Shown here: positions 185 through 13,612 of the stretch, piece by piece
Position numbering within the stretch: position 1 is the stretch's first letter
Layout of the letters: each line of letters opens with the position of its first letter
Assembly: GCA_021442555.1 (NCBI GenBank)
Contig: JABUSV010000046.1
Location: forward strand, 1 to 39,511
Origin: Pseudobutyrivibrio sp.
Lineage (GTDB): Bacteria; Bacillota; Clostridia; Lachnospirales; Lachnospiraceae
Direction: 5' to 3'
DNA: 39,511 bases
Program-made: the position numbers and the translations under genes
Notes under the pieces: generated by a model
The model's input: the letters and a program-made list of their open reading frames with translations, nothing else
Told to the model about the DNA's origin: nothing
The model's database searches: none

Positions 185-1333
185 ATGATTATTGAATCAA
201 GTAAAGTGGGCATGTCAAGCTCGCGATCCTATTTTCACTACGAAAATAAGGAGACAGTTTCCTTAGAGGTTTTAGGAGGCAAAGATGCAGTAGAACTCTA
301 TATCTCAGATGCATCCAAGACAAAACTAGAACAGTTGAAAGAAGCCAGTGTAAAAATCAAAGAAGAGGAAAAGGAAGCTGAAAAGCAGCGAAAGGAAGAT
401 GAAGCAAAAAATGCTATTGCAACTCTTCAACAACTGCCAGTACAGGACAAGGGACAGGCACCATTAGCAGCTCCAATCGAGGATGCGAAAATCACCATGC
501 TCAAGCGTATTCTTGCATTACTTAACGGCAAAGAATACAAAGATGTCAAGGACATGGGTAAAACAATAAGAACTGTGAACGGGTCGGTTCAGCCGATTTC
601 AGAGATTAAGTCATTGGGCAAACCTGTCAAGCTTGCAGAAGGTGTAAATCTTAATCTGAGAAGTGGAACTACGTGGACAAGAGCAATCGCTCAATCCAGC
701 TTTGTATCAGAGTCAGAGGTTACAACCTTTAGTTCAACGGGGGTTGCTAAGACCGCTGACGGACGACAGATAAGCTTTAACATCGATGTGGAGATGAGCA
801 GGTCGTTTGAATCCTACATGGAGTCGGTAACGATGGAGAGTATTTTTAAGGATCCATTAACCATCAACGTAGATTCTAATGTGGCATCCATATCTGACAT
901 GAAGTTTAGATTTGATATCGATGCAGACGGAAAAGAAGAATATATCTCCATGGCAAATAATAATAGCCGGTTTCTGGCCCTGGATAAGAATGGCGATGGA
1001 ATTGTAAATGATGGCTCAGAGCTGTTTGGAGCAAGAACAGGTGATGGCTTTAAAGAACTGGCAGAATACGACGAGGACAAAAACGGTTGGATAGACGAAG
1101 CAGACTCAATATTTAACAAGCTGTTTCTTTGGACCAAGGATGAGGATGGCAACGACATTAAGACATATCTGAAAGATGCCGATGTTGGCGCCATTTATTT
1201 AGGAAATGTCAATACTGATTTTTCTATAAAAAATGCAATTAACCAGACTAATGGACAGATTTGTTCTACTGGAATATACCTCAAGGAATCTGGTGGTGTA
1301 GGAACTGTGCAGCACGTAGATCTGGCATTATAA
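185..1333 (+). CDS. Uncharacterised protein with EF-hand-like calcium-binding loops
   Basis: 382 residues, no signal peptide and no membrane segment. Residues about 45-80 are a charged, Lys/Glu-rich probable coiled coil. The C-terminal third carries three Asp-rich loops of the DxDxDG type: about 244 (DIDADG), 267 (DKNGDG) and 296 (DEDKNGWIDEAD). The last fits a 12-residue EF-hand loop. The N-terminus has a short Ser-rich motif (MSSSRSYF). SD AAGGAGG lies 5-10 bases before the ATG. It is monocistronic, since a terminator follows at once. The upstream sigma-28-like promoter suggests a link to motility or surface life. I do not recognise a characterised family. Calcium binding is inferred from the loops only. 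Confidence 0.75.
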   Translation: MIIESSKVGMSSSRSYFHYENKETVSLEVLGGKDAVELYISDASKTKLEQLKEASVKIKEEEKEAEKQRKEDEAKNAIATLQQLPVQDKGQAPLAAPIEDAKITMLKRILALLNGKEYKDVKDMGKTIRTVNGSVQPISEIKSLGKPVKLAEGVNLNLRSGTTWTRAIAQSSFVSESEVTTFSSTGVAKTADGRQISFNIDVEMSRSFESYMESVTMESIFKDPLTINVDSNVASISDMKFRFDIDADGKEEYISMANNNSRFLALDKNGDGIVNDGSELFGARTGDGFKELAEYDEDKNGWIDEADSIFNKLFLWTKDEDGNDIKTYLKDADVGAIYLGNVNTDFSIKNAINQTNGQICSTGIYLKESGGVGTVQHVDLAL

Positions 1334-1345
1334 CCTGGACATATC

Positions 1346-1377
1346 AAGGCGAGTATTTTTACTCGCCTTATATTTTT
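1346..1377 (+). terminator. Rho-independent terminator
   Basis: AAGGCGAGT and ACTCGCCTT pair perfectly around a 6-base loop and are followed by ATATTTTT. It ends the EF-hand-like gene and separates it from the kinase gene. Confidence 0.85.
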
Positions 1378-1434
1378 GCCTCGCATTTAAAATACATGTC
1401 TATTATAATAAGAAAGCATGCGAAGGAGTGTAAT

Positions 1435-2727
1435 GTGATTTATTTTATAGAAAATATCATTAACTATATTATCTATATTTGTATTCTAAGTTACGGATAT
1501 AAACTGACGGTTCGTAAGAATAGTATATGCGTTTTTATGTCAGGTATATCGGTACTGACAGGCGCAGCTGCAAACATATATCTTGGCTATAATAATCCAC
1601 TAGTATATATAGCATGGAGCATGGCTTCTATTTTATTATTATATAATGGTTCTATTATAAGGAATGCATTAATCAGTTTGGGAATAATGTATTTTACGGG
1701 CATGATAGATACCTTCAGCTTGACGTTAATACAAATAATACATATTGGAACAGGTGTAGATGCCACAAAACTTCAATGGTGGATGGAGACGGCTTATATA
1801 TTATCTTTTATCTTATATGTAGCCATATACAGATTGATTTTGAAAAATAGCAACGTATATTTAGGTGAAATCAAGCTTAAGTATAAGATTGCACTGTTGA
1901 TACAACTGAGAATTTTCCAAATGTTTTATAATCTTGTATTTGGCTTTTTTCAGATTAATCATGAGAGATATAGTACGGATGCATATTTGATATTTATAAC
2001 AAGTATTATTGGAGCTTACTATGCAATCTTTCACACATTGCAGCTGGCAGTAAGTAACACAGTGTCAGCTTCGCAAGTTGTCGAACTTGAAAAATATACT
2101 ATAATGCAAAAACAACAGTATGAATATCAGCTTAAAACAGATATTGAGTTAAGAAAATTAAGACATGATTTATCGAATCATCTTGGAGTAATTAGAGAAC
2201 TAATATATGACAATAAGTTAGATGAAAGTAAACGATATATTGATTCACTGTTGGAGGCTAAGGAAGTTTGTAACACTAAATATTATACAGGAGACAGTTT
2301 CTTGGATGTACTTGTAAAATATTATGCCTTCCTGTGCGAGACGGGTGAAATCACATTCGAGATTAAGGGCCATCTAAATGAAGAACTTATGCTTGAAATT
2401 ATAGATATGACGACTCTTATTGGCAATGCTTTGCAAAATGCATTAGAAGCAGCCTTAGAGGCGGATGTCCGTGAGATACACCTAGAGCTTGCTGATCACA
2501 GAAAGGAAGTATTTATTATTATTTCAAATACATGTAAAGATATTGTTGATGTAGATAAGAATTTTTGCCAGTCTAGCAAGACGGATAAAAAACGACATGG
2601 ATTCGGATTAAAGAATATTAATGGCGTTATAGAAAAATATGATGGTGAATATTACATTAATACACTTAATGATAATGGTATTAATTGGTTTAACATGACG
2701 TTGATTATACCTAAAGGGGAAAAATGA
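1435..2727 (+). CDS. AgrC-like sensor histidine kinase (GHKL ATPase)
   Basis: The ORF track starts at 1261 inside the previous gene, which is unlikely. A GTG at 1435 has an ideal SD (AAGGAG, 6 bases away) and lies downstream of the terminator, giving 430 residues. The N-terminal half has about six hydrophobic segments (roughly residues 5-210), as in peptide-sensing kinases. The HisKA-like helix carries RHDLSNH, with the first His as likely phospho-acceptor. The GHKL domain has an N-box (GNALQNALEAAL) and a late G-box (HGFGLKNI). It overlaps the LytTR regulator by ATGA, so the two form a pair. The signal is unknown, and no AgrD-like propeptide is visible nearby. Confidence 0.85.
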   Translation: MIYFIENIINYIIYICILSYGYKLTVRKNSICVFMSGISVLTGAAANIYLGYNNPLVYIAWSMASILLLYNGSIIRNALISLGIMYFTGMIDTFSLTLIQIIHIGTGVDATKLQWWMETAYILSFILYVAIYRLILKNSNVYLGEIKLKYKIALLIQLRIFQMFYNLVFGFFQINHERYSTDAYLIFITSIIGAYYAIFHTLQLAVSNTVSASQVVELEKYTIMQKQQYEYQLKTDIELRKLRHDLSNHLGVIRELIYDNKLDESKRYIDSLLEAKEVCNTKYYTGDSFLDVLVKYYAFLCETGEITFEIKGHLNEELMLEIIDMTTLIGNALQNALEAALEADVREIHLELADHRKEVFIIISNTCKDIVDVDKNFCQSSKTDKKRHGFGLKNINGVIEKYDGEYYINTLNDNGINWFNMTLIIPKGEK

Positions 2728-3428
2728 GAATACTAGTTGTGGATGATGAGTCCATTTGGAGAGACATAATTAAAGGAAATATAATTTCATATCTTGCCAA
2801 TATTGGATTGGAAGCTAGAATAGATTGCTGTAAAGACGCAAGTTTTATTGAAAGAATTAAGTTATATGATCTGATATATTTGGATATTGAACTTGATGAT
2901 GAGGTTGATGGATTTGAGTTAGCAGAGCAAATAAATAATAGTGATTTTGAAGGTAAGGTAGTGTTTATAACTTCACACACAGAATGGGCTAGATATGGGT
3001 ATCGAGTAAATGCCTTTAGATATGTTCAAAAGAATAACAAGGAAGAGCTTGAAGAATCAATAGAGGCCTATCTTGCGACAAAACATACTAAAACATATAT
3101 CACTTGTAAGACCAAACTAGGAGAAACTAAAACCGTTGAGACAGACAAAATAGAGTATGTTGAAAGCATAAATCGCCATATAGAATACAGCCTTATGAAT
3201 AGTATAAAGTTGTATGGTACTGGAACACTGGCAAATGTTCTGGAAGAACTGGAAAACAGAGGTTTCTGCCAGGTGCACAGATCTTATATTGTTAATTTCT
3301 GTAACACCAAACATATAAAACGAAGAGGTATTATGCTTAGCAGCGGTATAATTATTCCAGTAGGACGAACCTACTATAATGAGGTGAAGGAAAAATATGC
3401 TTATTGGAGACTGAAAAATGAAACTTGA
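2724..3428 (+). CDS. LytTR-family response regulator
   Basis: 234 residues. The receiver domain (about 1-120) has the acidic pair VVDDE at 6-9 and phospho-acceptor Asp54 in IYLDIEL. The C-terminal LytTR DNA-binding domain (about 128-230) has the typical EYVESINRHIEY and CQVHRSYIVN blocks. Its start overlaps the kinase stop by 4 bases, implying translational coupling. LytTR proteins bind direct repeats about two helical turns apart. Such a repeat lies right after this gene, upstream of the peptidoglycan-binding gene, which is therefore the best candidate target. Confidence 0.9.
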   Translation: MRILVVDDESIWRDIIKGNIISYLANIGLEARIDCCKDASFIERIKLYDLIYLDIELDDEVDGFELAEQINNSDFEGKVVFITSHTEWARYGYRVNAFRYVQKNNKEELEESIEAYLATKHTKTYITCKTKLGETKTVETDKIEYVESINRHIEYSLMNSIKLYGTGTLANVLEELENRGFCQVHRSYIVNFCNTKHIKRRGIMLSSGIIIPVGRTYYNEVKEKYAYWRLKNET

Positions 3429-3430
3429 CC

Positions 3431-3466
3431 ATGTTGTTTAGACGTATTTTATGTCGTTCAGACATG
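3431..3466 (+). promoter_or_regulatory. Candidate LytTR operator (direct repeat)
   Basis: Two 16-base imperfect copies (12 of 16 identical) start at 3431 and 3451. Their cores GTTTAG (3436) and GTTCAG (3456) match the GTTNRK core of LytTR sites, exactly 20 bases apart. The flanking part of the consensus is poor. The site is about 25 bases upstream of the -35-like TTGTGG of the next gene, a position suited to activation. Confidence 0.4.
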
Positions 3467-3481
3467 AATTATGGGCATTAT

Positions 3482-3518
3482 ATATACGTTGTGGTATAAC
3501 TTCAAGTGATATTGTTAT
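3482..3518 (+). promoter_or_regulatory. Candidate promoter with element shared with the ldh promoter
   Basis: ATATACGTTGT, 6 bases, ACTTCAA occurs here and, with identical spacing, at 6502-6525 upstream of the lactate dehydrogenase gene. TTGTGG (3489-3494) and TGTTAT (3513-3518) can serve as -35 and -10 with an 18-base spacer. It would transcribe the gene starting at 3543 and the two lipoprotein genes behind it. Confidence 0.45.
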
Positions 3519-3542
3519 TACTGTATACAAAGGAGGAGAATA

Positions 3543-4844
3543 ATGTCAGTATCATTTGGGAGTTGGGATTCTATTGGAATGCCCAAAAGACTTAAGAATC
3601 CAACCAGTGGGATTAATACAAATCAGGTAAGCAGTATTTCGAATGCACAACTTGAAAAGAATAATAGCACTGGAGTATCAGACAGAGCAGTAGTTCTTGA
3701 TTTATCAAAGGATTATGTAGCGCCAAAGGCTTCAGCACAGGTTATTGCAAAAGCAGCAGCCGTTACAACGCAAAGAACATTGAAAGTAGGTTCTTCCGGT
3801 GATGATGTTAGGCAACTTCAGTCTAATCTTAGTAAGTTAGGCTATAGTGTAGGAACACCAGATGGAAAGTATGGAAATGGAACCAAAAATGCAGTGATCT
3901 CGTTTCAAAAAACATTTGGGCTATCAGCAGATGGAATAGCAGGAAAAATGACTTTAGATGCAGTAGCTACGGCTTTAAACAGACAAAATAACGGTATATT
4001 GGCCAAAGGACAAATAAGTAATAATGTTAAAACATTACAAGAAAATCTGATTAAGTTAGGGTTTTTGTCTGGTAAAGCGGATGGAGCTTTTGGTACAAAC
4101 ACAGAAAATGCTGTTAAGGCGTTTCAACGAAAATATAATTTGACAGCTGATGGTCTGGCTGGCCAGACAACTTTAAAGAAAATAAATGAACTGATTAAAA
4201 ATCTCGGCAAGCCTTCTATACCAACAAAGCCAATAAACGGGGTATATACTCCTATAAATAACGGAAGTAAGCTTACACTTCCTAATCCTGGAGATAAGAT
4301 TACTGTTTCGCTTGGAACAGATAAAAATGATGTAAAAGCAGAGGTAAAGAAGGATAATTGCTGGACATTGGAGTACTCTATTGCAGGTTGTAGAAAAAAT
4401 TACCCAAATCAACCATGCTTGAAAAGGTTAGAATCAGCTATTAGCAAGTTTTCATATAATGAAGGCAGTCAGGATTTACTAAAGTTACAAGTGCCTGGTA
4501 TAGGTGAATGTTATGCAGGTGCAATGGTTGAAGGCTTTGCTAATATAGGGGATGTTGTGGAAGTGACGCTTGATAATAATACCAGGTTCAATTTTATGAT
4601 ATTAGACACCAAGTCTGTTACACATCCATCATCAGATTTGATTGACAATAATCAGTGTCAGATTAAAGGTATCGGCCACGGATATATGAGTGATAATAAC
4701 AGTAAGGTGCAGTTGAGCATATGTGAGTTTATTACATCACAATCTTTGAGTGGGAAATATAGTGCGAAGGATTATCCTAGTGGATCATTTTTAACTGACA
4801 GACATGTGACTAGTGCCCAGATAATAGGACATGCAAACATATAA
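3543..4844 (+). CDS. Protein with two peptidoglycan-binding (PG_binding_1) domains
   Basis: 433 residues. Two PG_binding_1 repeats are clear at about 79-145 (GDDVRQLQSNLSKLGY ... FGLSADGIAG) and 155-217 (VKTLQENLIKLGF ... YNLTADGLAG). A Pro-rich linker follows, then a C-terminal domain (about 245-400). That domain contains GDVVEVTLDN and a late CEFI strand and resembles, from memory, a small beta-barrel domain found at the end of some Firmicute phage or wall-associated proteins. There is no Sec signal peptide, although the domains imply a wall target. Export by a non-Sec route or after lysis is possible. SD AAAGGAGGAG precedes the ATG. It is first in an operon with two lipoproteins. No catalytic domain is recognised. 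Confidence 0.8.
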   Translation: MSVSFGSWDSIGMPKRLKNPTSGINTNQVSSISNAQLEKNNSTGVSDRAVVLDLSKDYVAPKASAQVIAKAAAVTTQRTLKVGSSGDDVRQLQSNLSKLGYSVGTPDGKYGNGTKNAVISFQKTFGLSADGIAGKMTLDAVATALNRQNNGILAKGQISNNVKTLQENLIKLGFLSGKADGAFGTNTENAVKAFQRKYNLTADGLAGQTTLKKINELIKNLGKPSIPTKPINGVYTPINNGSKLTLPNPGDKITVSLGTDKNDVKAEVKKDNCWTLEYSIAGCRKNYPNQPCLKRLESAISKFSYNEGSQDLLKLQVPGIGECYAGAMVEGFANIGDVVEVTLDNNTRFNFMILDTKSVTHPSSDLIDNNQCQIKGIGHGYMSDNNSKVQLSICEFITSQSLSGKYSAKDYPSGSFLTDRHVTSAQIIGHANI

Positions 4845-8150: not shown

Positions 8151-8406
8151 ATTAAGGGTTCTTTTTATTTAGCTTATATCCAAGGATGCCATTACAATAA
8201 ATGCAAAAACTGTGCCACTTGCACCACACAACGCGGTGTTGGGAAGTAATCCCAATGTTCCGATAGTAATTACCTTTGGATCATCGCTGAAGATTGCCAC
8301 AAGAGTAGCGGCAAATTGTATGCCTAATAAGGCGGTGGTTGCCAAAAATACCTCGCCTACATCAAAGGTAAAAAAGGAAGGCCTGTCTTGCAGATATCAA
8401 GAAATA
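8151..8406 (-). pseudogene. Mosaic remnant of a rhomboid-MATE locus
   Basis: This gene-free stretch matches the intact rhomboid and MATE genes in pieces, in the same order and orientation. 8151-8181 equals 11679-11709 (31 of 31 bases), 8182-8247 matches 11858-11925, about 8253-8383 matches about 12527-12659, and 8384-8406 matches about 12873-12895. Internal deletions of about 150, 600 and 210 bases separate the blocks. No reading frame survives. The plus-strand ORF 8212-8454 in the track is a shadow of this remnant. The remainder up to 8497 holds only a short GATA repeat and AT-rich sequence. Confidence 0.85.
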
Positions 8407-8497
8407 CTGCTGGCTTATATTAATAGAAGAACAGTATTTAATACAGATAGATAGATACAAAAAATGGACACAATTATAAAAAAGTCTAAAAAGCAAC

Positions 8498-8525
8498 TTG
8501 ACAAAAAAAGTGAGTAATATATAAT
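8498..8525 (+). promoter_or_regulatory. Consensus sigma-A promoter of the bacteriocin gene
   Basis: TTGACA (8498-8503), a 16-base spacer and TATAAT (8520-8525): both hexamers perfect. The leader to the ATG at 8630 is about 100 bases and has no obvious gene. Confidence 0.75.
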
Positions 8526-8629
8526 TTTAACCAAGGATTACAGTTTTATCGATAAGACTAGGTACAAATGTTTGAAATTGCAGAAATATAGTGTGATATA
8601 GCAAAGCATTAAGGAGTAGAGGTATTCTT

Positions 8630-8935
8630 ATGGGATTTAAAAACAAACTATTAGGTTTTGCAGTTGCTATTATGTTAGTAGGAGTGCCTACAACGGTATT
8701 TGCAATTGATGTAGCTGGTGGTGATTTGTATTATAATGGCGGTCAAACAGATGAAAAAGTATATTCTGAAATCGGTCGTAAAGAGGGCGTAGAGCGCAAT
8801 TATATGGTTAAAGCAACTGTAAAGGTTGGAAATAACACATATACAAGTGGATACAAAAAAAACTATGCAAAAAAAGAGGCCAAAAGAGTTTGGTATGCAA
8901 ATGAAAAATCTTATTATGATTATTACCCATATTAA
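8630..8935 (+). CDS. Lactococcin-972-family bacteriocin precursor
   Basis: 101 residues. A Sec signal peptide (KNKLLGFAVAIMLVGVP) ends at VFA, giving a mature peptide of about 76 residues from Ile26. Features shared with lactococcin 972 (from memory): GG near the mature N-terminus followed by aromatics, a central KATV block, a basic segment, and a C-terminal EKSYYDYY matching the EKASFYYNFW ending. Lactococcin 972 is unmodified, Sec-secreted and acts on lipid II at the septum. The downstream membrane protein and ATPase are the usual companions and support the call. A perfect promoter upstream and a terminator just after it suggest the peptide is made in excess over its partners. Confidence 0.75.
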   Translation: MGFKNKLLGFAVAIMLVGVPTTVFAIDVAGGDLYYNGGQTDEKVYSEIGRKEGVERNYMVKATVKVGNNTYTSGYKKNYAKKEAKRVWYANEKSYYDYYPY

Positions 8936-8963
8936 ATGTGGAAGTATGAGTGTTTAAGAATAG

Positions 8964-8991
8964 GCGGGGCTGATTGCCCCGCTTGTTTTTT
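8964..8991 (+). terminator. Rho-independent terminator after the bacteriocin gene
   Basis: GCGGGGC and GCCCCGC pair around TGATT, followed by TTGTTTTTT. Partial read-through would explain low expression of the membrane protein and ATPase behind it, or these have their own promoter at about 9000-9050. Confidence 0.88.
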
Positions 8992-9063
8992 AAAATAAAG
9001 CATAAAAGATGGAGTAGTTTTATTCATATTATTTATTATTACATTTTGAAAGGGAGTTAAAGT

Positions 9064-11016
9064 TTGAGGAATTTTTTGAAGATATTTATATTCCTGGAAG
9101 TATTGTTGTTTACATATATTTTTAATACATCAATATATAGTATATACGAAAAAAATCACGTAGCTAATGAAGAATTAGCAGGATATGTGATAGTAGGTGC
9201 ATCACCAGAAATACTTGATGATTTTTATACATTGTTTATGGAATATAATTCAGGAAATAAATTGGAGATCGTTAATAATGCTATTTCTTCGACAAATCAA
9301 TCTGAATATGATATATATTGCTATCCAATCAACAAGTTCAAACAAAAGCAACCTATATCTCAATCTATTTTATTTCGATATCATGAACTAGAAAGAGAAG
9401 ACTATTTAGACAGTGTTGGAATATTCTATTCAGATTTAACGGATGATGAAATATCAGAAATGTCTTCACGACTATCTGTCTCGATAAATAATTATGAGGA
9501 TGAATCGATTCCCTACAGTATGATTTTACAACTAAGTTTTATGAACTATGTAATTTTGTTTATCGTGATACAAACAATCTATTGTATTTATACATCCTAT
9601 AGTATGAAAAAAATAGGTATTAAAAAGAGCATGGGATTTTCTACGTTACACATTTTAAAAGAACAGATTATACGTGTAGCAAAGATATTTGTATTAGGTT
9701 ATTTATTTATTTTTATTCTGCTTAACTTATATTATGTATTCACAAATCGATATGATTTTTCATATATAGCATTTAGTCTAATCTATTTTGGTATTGTTTT
9801 GATCATTAACATAATCAGTGTATTAAACACAAGTATTATGTTCAGACTAATTTCCTTAGAGTCGATGATTAAAAATAAGACCTTAAATAATAGTGTTAAT
9901 ATGATAGTTCAGGTCGTGAAAGTGGGATTATCAGTAATAATTGCAGTTACAATTATTATGCTGTTAAAACATGTAGATTCATATAAGCGAAGCCAACAAG
10001 ACGTGTTAGATTTTGAGTATTTGGAGGGATATTATACCGCTAATGGTTTCAATTCTTTGGAATATGATTATGCAATAAATAATCCTGATATTCTACAAGA
10101 GTATTCAGATAATACATTGAAACTATACAACAACAAATCTTTACTATGCGATTCTAGCAATTACAGTGATATTCAGTCATCAGGTAATGATTTTGAAAGC
10201 GCGATTATTGTGGCCAATTCTAATTATTTGAATGAATTTTCAAACATTTTGTTTAATAAGGAGGCATTGGGGAAAGAAATAATCAAAGAACCTACGGTAT
10301 TTATCCCGTATAAGTATAAGAATGATATAAATCAAATAAAAGCATACATAGATGAAGAGTATTATAGATTGATGAATTATAATCAGTTTTATGGATTGCA
10401 GAAAGAAAAGGATTATTTAGATGATTATGACATAGTTTACATGGATGATGATTCAAGTTTAAAGGTCAACATGGAAAATGGTTTTTCAGATGTGACTGAC
10501 CCTATTATTATTGTTGATACTGGAGATTTTGCAGGGCTTTACTATTTGGATTGTTTAAATATGAGATGTTTACTATTTCAAATGAAATCAAGGAATGAAT
10601 TTTCTTCACTGTTATCTAAGTGCTCCATGGATAAATTGGTTATAGCTGGAACATTACTTACTCCATATATGATGGAATTTGAAAATACAACATTTGTTCT
10701 TAAAACAATTGTTCTTTTTACACTGGTATTTATTATATCTTTAATCTTTATTATTTATATAGCAAATTATGTGGATATCATTGTAAATCGAAAAAAATAT
10801 GCAATAAAAGAAATCATGGGATACTCACATTTTTATATATTGAAGAATAGGTATGTTTTCTTTGGCATCAGCCTGATAATAATTACCGCCTTGATACCTA
10901 TCAATAAATTTTTTGTTTGTTTTATGATAATTTTGAGTATTGATTGTATTTTCTGTGAGCTGCTTTATAAAATGTACATCATAAATGCTTTATACGAAAT
11001 TGAAAAGGGGGCATAG
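9064..11016 (+). CDS. Bacteriocin-associated integral membrane protein (lactococcin 972 immunity/export type)
   Basis: 650 residues, start TTG with SD AGGGAG 7 bases away. Topology seen: one N-terminal helix (about 5-25), an outside domain of about 130 residues, four helices between about 155 and 305, a second large outside domain (about 310-535), and two to three C-terminal helices. This FtsX/MacB-like layout matches the bacteriocin-associated membrane proteins that accompany lactococcin 972 genes. Together with the ATPase behind it, it probably forms an ABC exporter or immunity complex that removes the bacteriocin from the membrane. It is very AT-rich compared with the metabolic genes downstream, which hints at transfer. 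Confidence 0.75.
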   Translation: MRNFLKIFIFLEVLLFTYIFNTSIYSIYEKNHVANEELAGYVIVGASPEILDDFYTLFMEYNSGNKLEIVNNAISSTNQSEYDIYCYPINKFKQKQPISQSILFRYHELEREDYLDSVGIFYSDLTDDEISEMSSRLSVSINNYEDESIPYSMILQLSFMNYVILFIVIQTIYCIYTSYSMKKIGIKKSMGFSTLHILKEQIIRVAKIFVLGYLFIFILLNLYYVFTNRYDFSYIAFSLIYFGIVLIINIISVLNTSIMFRLISLESMIKNKTLNNSVNMIVQVVKVGLSVIIAVTIIMLLKHVDSYKRSQQDVLDFEYLEGYYTANGFNSLEYDYAINNPDILQEYSDNTLKLYNNKSLLCDSSNYSDIQSSGNDFESAIIVANSNYLNEFSNILFNKEALGKEIIKEPTVFIPYKYKNDINQIKAYIDEEYYRLMNYNQFYGLQKEKDYLDDYDIVYMDDDSSLKVNMENGFSDVTDPIIIVDTGDFAGLYYLDCLNMRCLLFQMKSRNEFSSLLSKCSMDKLVIAGTLLTPYMMEFENTTFVLKTIVLFTLVFIISLIFIIYIANYVDIIVNRKKYAIKEIMGYSHFYILKNRYVFFGISLIIITALIPINKFFVCFMIILSIDCIFCELLYKMYIINALYEIEKGA

Positions 11017-11018
11017 AT

Positions 11019-11669
11019 ATGTCATTAATTTCATTAAATAATATAAAGAAAGGTTATGATAAGAACCAAGTTATTCTAGATGATTTGTCGTTGGAAATCG
11101 ATAAGGGTGAATTTATTGGGTTTGTCGGAAAAAGTGGTGCGGGAAAGACTACTTTATTAAATGTAATAGGATTGATAACGGATATATCTGAGGGAGAGGT
11201 CGTTATTGACAATTGTATAATTAAATCAATTAATTGTAAAAAAGCAATGCTCTTGAGAAGATATACTTTGGGGTATCTGTTTCAAAATTATGGATTGATA
11301 GAAGATGAAAGTGTGCTTTGGAATTTAAAATTGGCTCTTGAGTATAAAAAGGTTCCCCGAAAAGAAAAAGAAAAAATAATCAAAGATAACCTGGAGCAAT
11401 TTGATTTAATACATTTAGTTGATAGGAAAGTATATCAGCTAAGTGGTGGTGAACAACAAAGAATTGCTATTGTTAAACTGATACTGCAGGGAAGCCAAAT
11501 AATACTGGCTGATGAACCAACCTCAGGACTTGATAAGGATAATGAAACGATAGTAATGGAGCTGCTAAAGGAGTTAAATGAAAAAGGTACCACCATAATA
11601 ATGGTAACGCACAATATGAACTTGTGTAGTTATTTCTCGAGAGTAATCAATGTGGAAGAGTTTAAATAA
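11019..11669 (+). CDS. ABC transporter ATP-binding protein, lactococcin-972 export group
   Basis: 216 residues, a single nucleotide-binding domain of the MacB/LolD type. Walker A GKSGAGKTT (37-45), signature LSGGEQQR (141-148), Walker B IILADEP (161-167) and switch His198 are all intact. The ATG is 2 bases after the preceding stop and its SD (AAAGGGGG) lies in the end of that gene. It should power the 650-residue membrane protein. A bidirectional terminator follows at once. Confidence 0.88.
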   Translation: MSLISLNNIKKGYDKNQVILDDLSLEIDKGEFIGFVGKSGAGKTTLLNVIGLITDISEGEVVIDNCIIKSINCKKAMLLRRYTLGYLFQNYGLIEDESVLWNLKLALEYKKVPRKEKEKIIKDNLEQFDLIHLVDRKVYQLSGGEQQRIAIVKLILQGSQIILADEPTSGLDKDNETIVMELLKELNEKGTTIIMVTHNMNLCSYFSRVINVEEFK

Positions 11670-11695
11670 AAAGAACCCATTAAGGGTTCTTTTTA
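11668..11695. terminator. Bidirectional terminator
   Basis: AAAAAGAACCC and GGGTTCTTTTT pair perfectly (11 bases) around ATTAA. It serves the ATPase gene on the plus strand and the rhomboid gene on the minus strand. The last codons of the rhomboid gene and the ATPase stop lie within it. Half of it is retained in the decayed copy at 8151. Confidence 0.9.
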
Positions 11696-12246
11696 TTTAG
11701 CTTATATCCGATTACACTTCCTATGAGACCACCAACTATGTGTGCGGTGTTGGATATGTTGTCTGTAACAAATATTCCCTGGAAGATTTCCTGTCCCACA
11801 TAGAGTATTACTACAAGAATAAAAGTAAGCGGAATCTCTTTATCGCTAAAGCTTGTGAAGGATGCCATTACAATAAAAGCAAAAACTACGCCGCTGGCAC
11901 CACACAACGCGGTGTCGGGAAATAACAGATTGTTAATTAATCCTGTTACTAAGGCTGTTATAAGAATGATTTCAAGCATTGCTTTGCTTCCATATTTTTC
12001 TTCAAGCAGTGGACCAATCAGTAACAGATACATCATATTTCCGATATAGTGTTGGAAATTAGCGTGACCCAATACGTGGGTAAATAATCTGACATAGGTC
12101 AGGGGACTGGTCCAATACCTGCCATAGGTCATGAACGCTATTTCTGTAATTTTATTTCCAGTCATTAATCCCAGAAGCAGGACCACAAAACTGATGATTG
12201 TAAAGCTTAATACAACAGGTGAGTTAAATTTGATTTTGATTTTCAT
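11680..12246 (-). CDS. Rhomboid-family intramembrane serine protease
   Basis: The track starts at 12279, but the Met at 12246 has a proper SD (GGAGG, 11 bases away), giving 188 residues. Six membrane helices are likely. The catalytic dyad is visible: Ser118 in LCGASG and His169 in NTAHIVGG. His66 and Asn70 (HYIGN) in helix 2 complete the oxyanion region. Rhomboids cleave membrane-protein helices. The substrate is unknown. The start overlaps the MATE gene end by 23 bases, so both are co-translated. A decayed copy of this pair lies at 8151-8406. Confidence 0.88.
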   Translation of the reverse strand: MKIKIKFNSPVVLSFTIISFVVLLLGLMTGNKITEIAFMTYGRYWTSPLTYVRLFTHVLGHANFQHYIGNMMYLLLIGPLLEEKYGSKAMLEIILITALVTGLINNLLFPDTALCGASGVVFAFIVMASFTSFSDKEIPLTFILVVILYVGQEIFQGIFVTDNISNTAHIVGGLIGSVIGYKLNKKNP

Positions 12247-13612
12247 TATTATTATTTGCCTCCATAATTTTAAGTTCATGCAAGAATTTGACAGTATAAG
12301 GAATGGCAGTCAATGTTGTTAGTATATCAGATATTGCCTGAGATATCTGCACACCCAGTAATCCCAATATTGATGAGAGGATTAACAGTGTAGGGATAAA
12401 ATATAAGCCGCTTCTTAACATTGATAAGAGTGTGGCTGTTTTTACCCGTCCAACACTTTGAAACATCATGTTGGAGCATACAGCAACAGGCTGAAATACC
12501 TGGCCAAAAAACTGCACGGTTAGTGCCAATGTTCCGATTGTTATTACCTTAGGGTCATCTCTGAAGATTGCCACAAGAGGGGCAGCAAATTGTATGCCTA
12601 ATAAGGCGGTAGTTGCCAGGAATACTTCGCCTACACCAAAGGTGAATAGAAAGGCCTGACGTACTCTGTTGTATTTTTTGGCTCCATAGTTGAATCCACA
12701 TACGGGCTGGAATCCCTGTCCGATTCCAAGGGTGGTTGCAAAGGTAAAATAGCAGATTCTATTAACAATGGACATGGCAGCAACAGCAGCATCTCCATAT
12801 ACGCTGGCGCATTCGTTCAAAAGCATGGTAGAGATACTAGACAGACCCTGACGCATCATTGCAGGAAGACCCGTCTTGCAGATATCAAGAAATACCGTTG
12901 GTTTAAAGGATACATTTTTGATAGAAAGCTTTGCCAGGGTTTTTCCTCTTAAAAACATGGAAAAAAGTAAACTAAAGCTTAGATACTGGGAAAACGCAGT
13001 TGCTATACCAGCACCCATTACTCCCATGTTAAATTTGCTCATCAAAAGCCAGTCACCAAATATGTTGATGAGACCTCCTGATGTAAGACCTATCATGGCG
13101 AAGGCTGCCTGTCCTTCGTAACGCAATATATTGTTGAGTACACAGCTGCAGCACATGGCAGGAGCTGCCAGCAAAATGAATATTGCATAGGTTCTGGCAT
13201 AAGGAAGTATGGTATCTGTGCTTCCCAAAAGATACATTAGAGGGTCTAAAAATATAAGACCTGCTATTGTGATAAACAAACTGGTGGCAAGGGCTGAAAA
13301 GAATGCAGTGGAGGTGTAGCAGGAAGCTCTGTCAATATCCTTGGCTCCAAGTGCTCTTGAGCATATACTTCCTGAACCCTGCCCATACATAAAGCCAAAG
13401 GCTTGAATTATAGCCATTAAACCAAATACAATTCCGATGGCGCCAGAAGCGCTGGTTCCATATTTTCCAACAAAAAATGTATCAGCTACGTTGTAAATAC
13501 TGGTAACTAACATACTGATTGTTGTTGGAATACCAAGCTTTACTATCAGAGATGGTATTGGGGTTTCTGTCATTTTTTTGTATTGTAAGGTCTGTTGATC
13601 TGCTAAAGACAT
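12224..13612 (-). CDS. MATE-family multidrug efflux transporter
   Basis: 462 residues, twelve hydrophobic segments in two homologous halves. Typical blocks are PTTISMLVTSIYNVADTFFVGKYG in helix 1-2, and GQGFQPVCGFNYGAKKYNR in the second half. It exports cationic drugs or metabolites in exchange for Na+ or H+. SD AGGAG lies 8 bases before the ATG. It is first in an operon with the rhomboid gene. A 9-base palindrome overlaps its candidate promoter, suggesting repressor or MerR-like control. The substrate cannot be deduced. Confidence 0.9.
   Translation of the reverse strand: MSLADQQTLQYKKMTETPIPSLIVKLGIPTTISMLVTSIYNVADTFFVGKYGTSASGAIGIVFGLMAIIQAFGFMYGQGSGSICSRALGAKDIDRASCYTSTAFFSALATSLFITIAGLIFLDPLMYLLGSTDTILPYARTYAIFILLAAPAMCCSCVLNNILRYEGQAAFAMIGLTSGGLINIFGDWLLMSKFNMGVMGAGIATAFSQYLSFSLLFSMFLRGKTLAKLSIKNVSFKPTVFLDICKTGLPAMMRQGLSSISTMLLNECASVYGDAAVAAMSIVNRICYFTFATTLGIGQGFQPVCGFNYGAKKYNRVRQAFLFTFGVGEVFLATTALLGIQFAAPLVAIFRDDPKVITIGTLALTVQFFGQVFQPVAVCSNMMFQSVGRVKTATLLSMLRSGLYFIPTLLILSSILGLLGVQISQAISDILTTLTAIPYTVKFLHELKIMEANNNNENQNQI

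Follow-up and report, generated by a model that had tools for sequence, protein, structure and literature searches.

A divergent, probably horizontally acquired lactococcin-972-like bacteriocin locus in Pseudobutyrivibrio sp.

Introduction

Can a peptide that escapes every family model still belong to the lactococcin 972 bacteriocins, and how did its genes come to lie in a Pseudobutyrivibrio contig? The question is raised by an AT-rich three-gene module in the window, by which we mean the whole stretch of DNA analysed (39,511 nucleotides, contig JABUSV010000046.1). An initial annotation, made from the letters alone, had called it a lactococcin-972-type module with a strongly diverged peptide and had suspected transfer. 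Taken as a whole, the module is very probably best explained as a lactococcin-972-like bacteriocin locus that belongs to a divergent subfamily and was acquired horizontally; this reading rests on comparison of sequences, and three other explanations are weighed along with the evidence that bears on them.

Layout of the locus

Three ORFs were read in the module. They are listed here with the DNA elements and the flanking genes.

8151..8417, no strand assigned: decayed direct repeat, shortened by internal deletions, of the rhomboid-MATE genes downstream
8498..8525, plus strand: sigma-70 consensus promoter, TTGACA-16-TATAAT; no other 12/12 site occurs in the window
8630..8935, plus strand: putative bacteriocin precursor, 101 aa, ATG start (ORF, alignment, profile comparison, selection)
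8964..8991, plus strand: intrinsic terminator with 7 GC pairs, 5-nt loop and T-run, between the peptide and membrane-protein genes
9064..11016, plus strand: multi-spanning membrane protein, 650 aa, TTG start, bact_immun_7tm (TIGR01654) superfamily
11019..11669, plus strand: ABC ATPase, 216 aa, nearest family L_ocin_972_ABC (TIGR03608)
11663..11699, no strand assigned: inverted repeat (terminator) common to the module and the convergent rhomboid gene
11680..12279, minus strand: rhomboid protease (PF01694), module flank and source of the upstream repeat
12224..13612, minus strand: MATE transporter (PF01554), module flank and source of the upstream repeat

The promoter, Sec-type precursor, terminator, TTG-start membrane protein and ATPase described earlier were thus all recovered. 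A perfect promoter match is unusual in the window, yet by itself not decisive, as shuffling gave a mean of 0.08 such sites and at least one site in 6 of 100 shuffles. Relatives carry TTGACA with a TATATT or TATGTT box at the equivalent position, the -35 box and its placement being kept in locus L006 and in the Collinsella (L007) and Blautia (L008) loci. The terminator stem reads GCGGGGC-TGATT-GCCCCGC and is followed by the T-run. All 13 loci with readable intergenic sequence (the window, its readable relatives, pBL1 and the other classical lactococcin 972 loci examined) have a hairpin separating gene 1 from gene 2. Because this hairpin is conserved across the family, the terminator may plausibly set an excess of peptide message over transporter message throughout the family. 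No modifying enzyme gene lies within the module, and its GC content is 0.291 as compared to 0.391 in the rest of the window, which places it in the lowest 1.4% among stretches of the same size. It may also be noted that at 1261-3428 of the window, on the module's strand and 5 kb upstream of it, a gene for a membrane-bound sensor kinase that looks AgrC-like by eye precedes one for a LytTR-like response regulator, and this pair may be a candidate regulator.

The peptide and its homology to lactococcin 972

The signal, read by eye, spans residues 1-25 (MGFKNKLLGFAVAIMLVGVPTTVFA) and has a lysine-containing n-region and a hydrophobic core, followed by the cut site VFA/ID, after Ala25. The predicted mature peptide is 76 aa long (8.9 kDa, pI 9.0) and cysteine-free. 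A Sec signal (by eye), a small mature domain and the absence of modification enzymes occur together in the window peptide. None of the PF09683 and NCBIfam lactococcin 972 models matched it even at E 10, a PF09683 genome search fails to recover it, and it lacks the HGSKxH motif typical of lactococcin 972 peptides. The peptides of its relatives likewise had no lactococcin 972 match in Pfam or NCBIfam. Scans of the window peptide with Pfam, NCBIfam, PHROGs and PADLOC returned nothing useful, and the matches from sequence searches against solved structures were judged to be due to chance.

Alignment of six subfamily peptides revealed the common stretches GGxLxYxGGQTxxxVYSxI-like, xVKVGxxTYxSG and RxWYxNExSYYDY, which can be condensed to the pattern GGxLxYxGGQTxxxVYS...VKVGxxTYxSG...WYxNExSYYDY. 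Between the window and Collinsella peptides, dN/dS was 0.14 overall, about 0.10 in the mature part and about 0.31 in the signal. Such purifying selection, along with the conserved elements, indicates that the gene belongs to a functioning gene family and is no chance ORF.

The reference set comprised 11 known lactococcin 972 peptides, encoded on pBL1, on further plasmids or in Lachnospiraceae genomes. The full-length comparison of the subfamily alignment with these members by hhalign gave a probability of 96.5 (E 7e-10). Since the full-length score is raised by the signal peptides, the comparison of the mature parts only was taken as the evidence. Here the score was 31.2, while 300 column-shuffles gave a mean of 10.6 (sd 2.5, maximum 20.5) and reversed profiles scored about 10. 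The landmarks brought together by the profile alignment are GG-W/L-x-Y, YS.Y/VYS.I, an A-T-V strand, SGW and the final YY, and about 19% of the columns are identical. Homology between the mature domains of the subfamily and the true lactococcin 972 peptides is thus statistically supported, and the locus would belong to a diverged, overlooked branch of lactococcin 972 bacteriocins lying below the PF09683 and NCBIfam peptide models. AlphaFold2 predicted beta-strands only, with low confidence (mean pLDDT 43.4 and 39.1 in runs on the peptide alone or with two relatives), and Foldseek with these low-confidence models (pLDDT 39-43) found no significant match, the fold of comparison being the lactococcin 972 beta-sandwich 2LGN.

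The membrane protein and the ABC ATPase

An HMM search of both the peptide and the membrane protein had been proposed as a check. No lactococcin 972 model matched the peptide; the membrane protein matched TIGR01654 significantly (E 3.3e-10), with residues 95-624 aligned to profile positions 106-658, so that homology extends over most of its length. The outcome that was to refute the initial annotation, a lack of significant matches for both proteins, did not occur. The score of 39.1 bits is under the curated cut-off of 189.35. Comparison by hhalign with a profile of five known loci gave a probability of 98.4 (E 7e-15, 431 columns). The protein has about 7 hydrophobic segments, and in the alignment its TTG start falls exactly on the ATG with which five relatives begin. 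In the membrane-protein tree the window copy falls in a clade with the gut relatives, sister to the Clostridia trios, with long branches to the known loci. For the ATPase, which carries Walker A, Q-loop and the LSGGE signature, TIGR03608 (L_ocin_972_ABC) was the best of all NCBIfam models (E 4e-72; 241.9 bits, under the cut-off of 254.85). A Clostridia relative matched TIGR01654 with E 5e-21 and TIGR03608 with 269.9 bits, over the cut-off. The PADLOC matches of the ATPase were of generic AAA type and were set aside. The lactococcin-972-type assignment of the initial annotation is therefore borne out by the locus anatomy, by the TIGR01654 and TIGR03608 matches and by the shuffle-controlled remote match of the peptide.

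Relatives in other genomes

Scanning contigs with the membrane protein located four loci at 63-65% identity, in Collinsella aerofaciens (L007), Blautia hansenii (L008), UBA3920 and Lagierella. Of these, the Collinsella and Blautia loci have intact homologous peptides that are 71-72% identical to that of the window. In UBA3920 the peptide gene is broken (early out-of-frame end, in-frame stops) and the transporter is kept; in Lagierella the peptide gene is lost and the transporter pair kept. On Enterococcus faecium plasmids the membrane protein is 79% identical to that of Collinsella; 5 copies are full and about 100 more retain only the first 33 codons of the gene. On these plasmids (copy L010) the peptide gene is gone and an IS-type sequence occupies its place. 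Class- and family-level searches added trios in a second Clostridia family, with peptides of 92-123 aa, so that the whole trio is conserved in Collinsella, Blautia and three Clostridia genomes. The rest of the 299-genome family sample gave no convincing peptide copy, the weak matches there (E 3e-4 to 9e-3) lying inside long or interrupted unrelated frames, and only four convincing copies of the membrane protein occurred among 391 class genomes. Scans of viral contigs with the membrane-protein and peptide alignments found no relative, and no phage record matched.

Some further loci were observed in passing. Locus L018 (genome G483) has the membrane protein without an upstream peptide and a transposase-like ORF in the expected ATPase slot, and is another degraded relative. 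The Peribacillus simplex plasmid NZ_CP157083.1 (L012, 5963 bp) carries a fragmented membrane protein (30.9% identical) and a split ATPase, part of the coding running over the record start. In the Lagierella MAG (L009) an apparently chimeric gene at 2355-3665, with a phage DNA polymerase-like start (by eye) and a terminase large subunit nuclease end, lies just upstream of the transporter pair and resembles a collapsed prophage.

Proposed mechanism and the role of the permease-ATPase pair

From these comparisons we propose that the sigma-70 promoter would give mainly a short transcript encoding the precursor, which would be exported by the Sec pathway and cleaved after Ala25 to a 76-residue cationic, cysteine-free and probably beta-rich peptide. 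On the model of lactococcin 972, its site of action may be the surface of related Gram-positive cells. Lactococcin 972 acts on the wall precursor lipid II according to the literature cited in PMC4055356 and PMC11796350, and binding of lipid II with a block of wall synthesis would be the most likely action here too. Read-through past the terminator would then yield the bact_immun_7tm permease and the ATPase, a pair that most likely protects the producer.

Protection by the permease-ATPase pair has not been shown experimentally in any lactococcin 972 locus (PMC11796350), and the name of TIGR03608, 'putative bacteriocin export ABC transporter', would suit a pair whose main role is to export the peptide rather than to confer immunity. 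The precursor has its own complete Sec-type signal ending in VFA, which makes export by an ABC pair unnecessary and immunity the likelier role. Also, Lagierella, UBA3920 and the E. faecium plasmids retain the pair after loss of the peptide, which is sensible for protection and not for export. We therefore consider a main exporter improbable, with roughly one chance in ten, and of the two functions that the initial annotation had given to these genes immunity is the likelier.

Slightly less probable still is another role for the peptide, as a small secreted signal, adhesin or envelope-stress effector that has kept lactococcin 972 ancestry and gene order and lost killing. Its divergence from all family models and the loss of the peptide gene in several relatives would fit such a protein. 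Yet selection is stronger on the mature region than on the signal, and relatives that have shed the peptide and kept the transporter follow the bacteriocin-cheater pattern known from the pneumococcal scb locus (PMC11796350). Also, mediterrocin, a remote Lachnospiraceae member that is 18% identical to lactococcin 972, is active (PMC12345188). A bacteriocin thus remains the preferred reading of the window peptide.

Evidence for horizontal transfer and the flanking repeat

The Collinsella and Blautia copies, in two phyla, have in common a block of 3477 bp (3.48 kb) at 99.77% identity with abrupt ends (3309-6785 of L007, 1722-5197 of L008). The Collinsella unit has a GC content of 0.305 against 0.51-0.55 in its flanks and splits an acyltransferase gene. 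The right end ...ATATCAAGTTT is common to the units in Collinsella, Blautia and the E. faecium plasmid, which lie in unrelated sites; the E. faecium unit ends at 8794 of L010, and its match stops at a right-hand position identical to that of Collinsella (6785 of L007). No transposase was found inside the compact Collinsella/Blautia/E. faecium unit. To the right of the Blautia unit lies a sequence related, in inverted orientation, to the Lagierella tail.

In the window, pieces of the repeat at 8151-8417 match 11679-11709 (100%), 11858-11925 (90%), 12521-12658 (87%) and 12863-12905 (88%), and they keep the order and orientation of the rhomboid-MATE source. Single-crossover integration, or tandem duplication followed by decay, would explain this repeat. 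The empty site was sought in the genus through the rhomboid, whose only relative there lies in another neighbourhood, and through the MATE gene, for which the other genus members sampled had no close match (E 1e-100). In Collinsella, the interrupted acyltransferase was absent from the other genomes sampled. Neither search yielded an empty site.

The low GC content of the module, the near-identical block in two phyla and the decayed flanking repeat make its horizontal transfer well supported, as had been suspected from its AT-richness. That it is instead an old resident of the lineage, AT-rich by function and never transferred as a unit, is the least probable of the three alternatives and very unlikely: the single copy per genome and the difference of about 36% in the membrane protein between the window and its nearest relatives would fit it, yet against it stand the near-identical block, the direct-repeat scar at the insertion, the rarity of both proteins in the family and class samples, and the scatter of relatives over Actinomycetota, Peptoniphilaceae, Lachnospiraceae and Enterococcus plasmids at 59-65% membrane-protein identity. 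The same 36% difference indicates that the window copy did not arrive recently from the sources of its nearest relatives. A bolder reading, which we offer tentatively and hold at somewhat less than even odds, is that the subfamily is a compact 3.5-kb bacteriocin-immunity cassette without a transposase of its own and with a fixed right end, seen in UBA3920 too, which some machinery moved across gut phyla and from which hosts repeatedly drop the peptide, keeping the immunity pair. Among the genes often shared by gut genomes from chicken and pig, a published survey includes a COG labelled 'Bacteriocin export ABC transporter, lactococcin 972 group' (PMC10782964).

Implications

The lactococcin 972 kind is known already, including mediterrocin as an active Lachnospiraceae member (PMC12345188). 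What appears new is a coherent subfamily that escapes PF09683, whose members show a pattern of transfer between phyla and have lost the peptide repeatedly; a partial literature search found no paper describing it. Bacteriocin surveys keyed to PF09683 would overlook the subfamily, e.g. that of the Hungate1000 rumen genomes, which names this model for lactococcin 972-like peptides (PMC13289728). As a result, the number of lactococcin-972-like weapons in gut Clostridia and Collinsella is probably underestimated. The six-peptide alignment suffices to build a model that detects the subfamily, and the natural relatives that lack the peptide and keep the transporter open the putative immunity role of the pair to direct testing.

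Comparison with known systems

In pBL1 of Lactococcus lactis (NC_004955.1), as in the window, a peptide gene, a membrane protein of about 650 aa and an ATPase of about 207-216 aa follow each other on one strand, and this order of peptide, 7TM protein and ABC ATPase, which also holds for other plasmid loci, agrees with that claimed by the initial annotation. Both have a Sec-type precursor with a signal of about 25 residues, an aromatic-ended mature peptide and the hairpin between genes 1 and 2. The mature peptide has 76 aa in the window and 66 aa in lactococcin 972, whose HGSKTH motif is missing in the window peptide; the latter has GGQT...VYS, ATVKVG..TYTSG and SYYDY instead. BLASTP matches the two membrane proteins over short stretches only.

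Streptococcin B (scbABC) follows the same three-gene plan as the window (PMC11796350). It is competence-controlled with a ComR-type regulator adjacent, whereas no regulator adjoins the window locus, and the functions of the pneumococcal B and C proteins are stated as unverified (PMC11796350). In some strains scbBC is kept after peptide loss (PMC11796350), in parallel to the E. faecium, Lagierella and UBA3920 relatives.

Mediterrocin of Mediterraneibacter gnavus (WP_005608346.1; mBio 2025), from a gut Lachnospiraceae species, has a precursor of 114 aa with a 25-aa signal and is spread among Clostridia (PMC12345188). Compared by published description, its mature part has 89 aa against 76 aa in the window, and it is annotated as lactococcin 972 family with a DUF1430 permease (PMC12345188), neither of which the window proteins match. 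Like the window locus, it combines a Sec precursor with a seven-segment permease and an ABC gene nearby and is remote from lactococcin 972 (PMC12345188).
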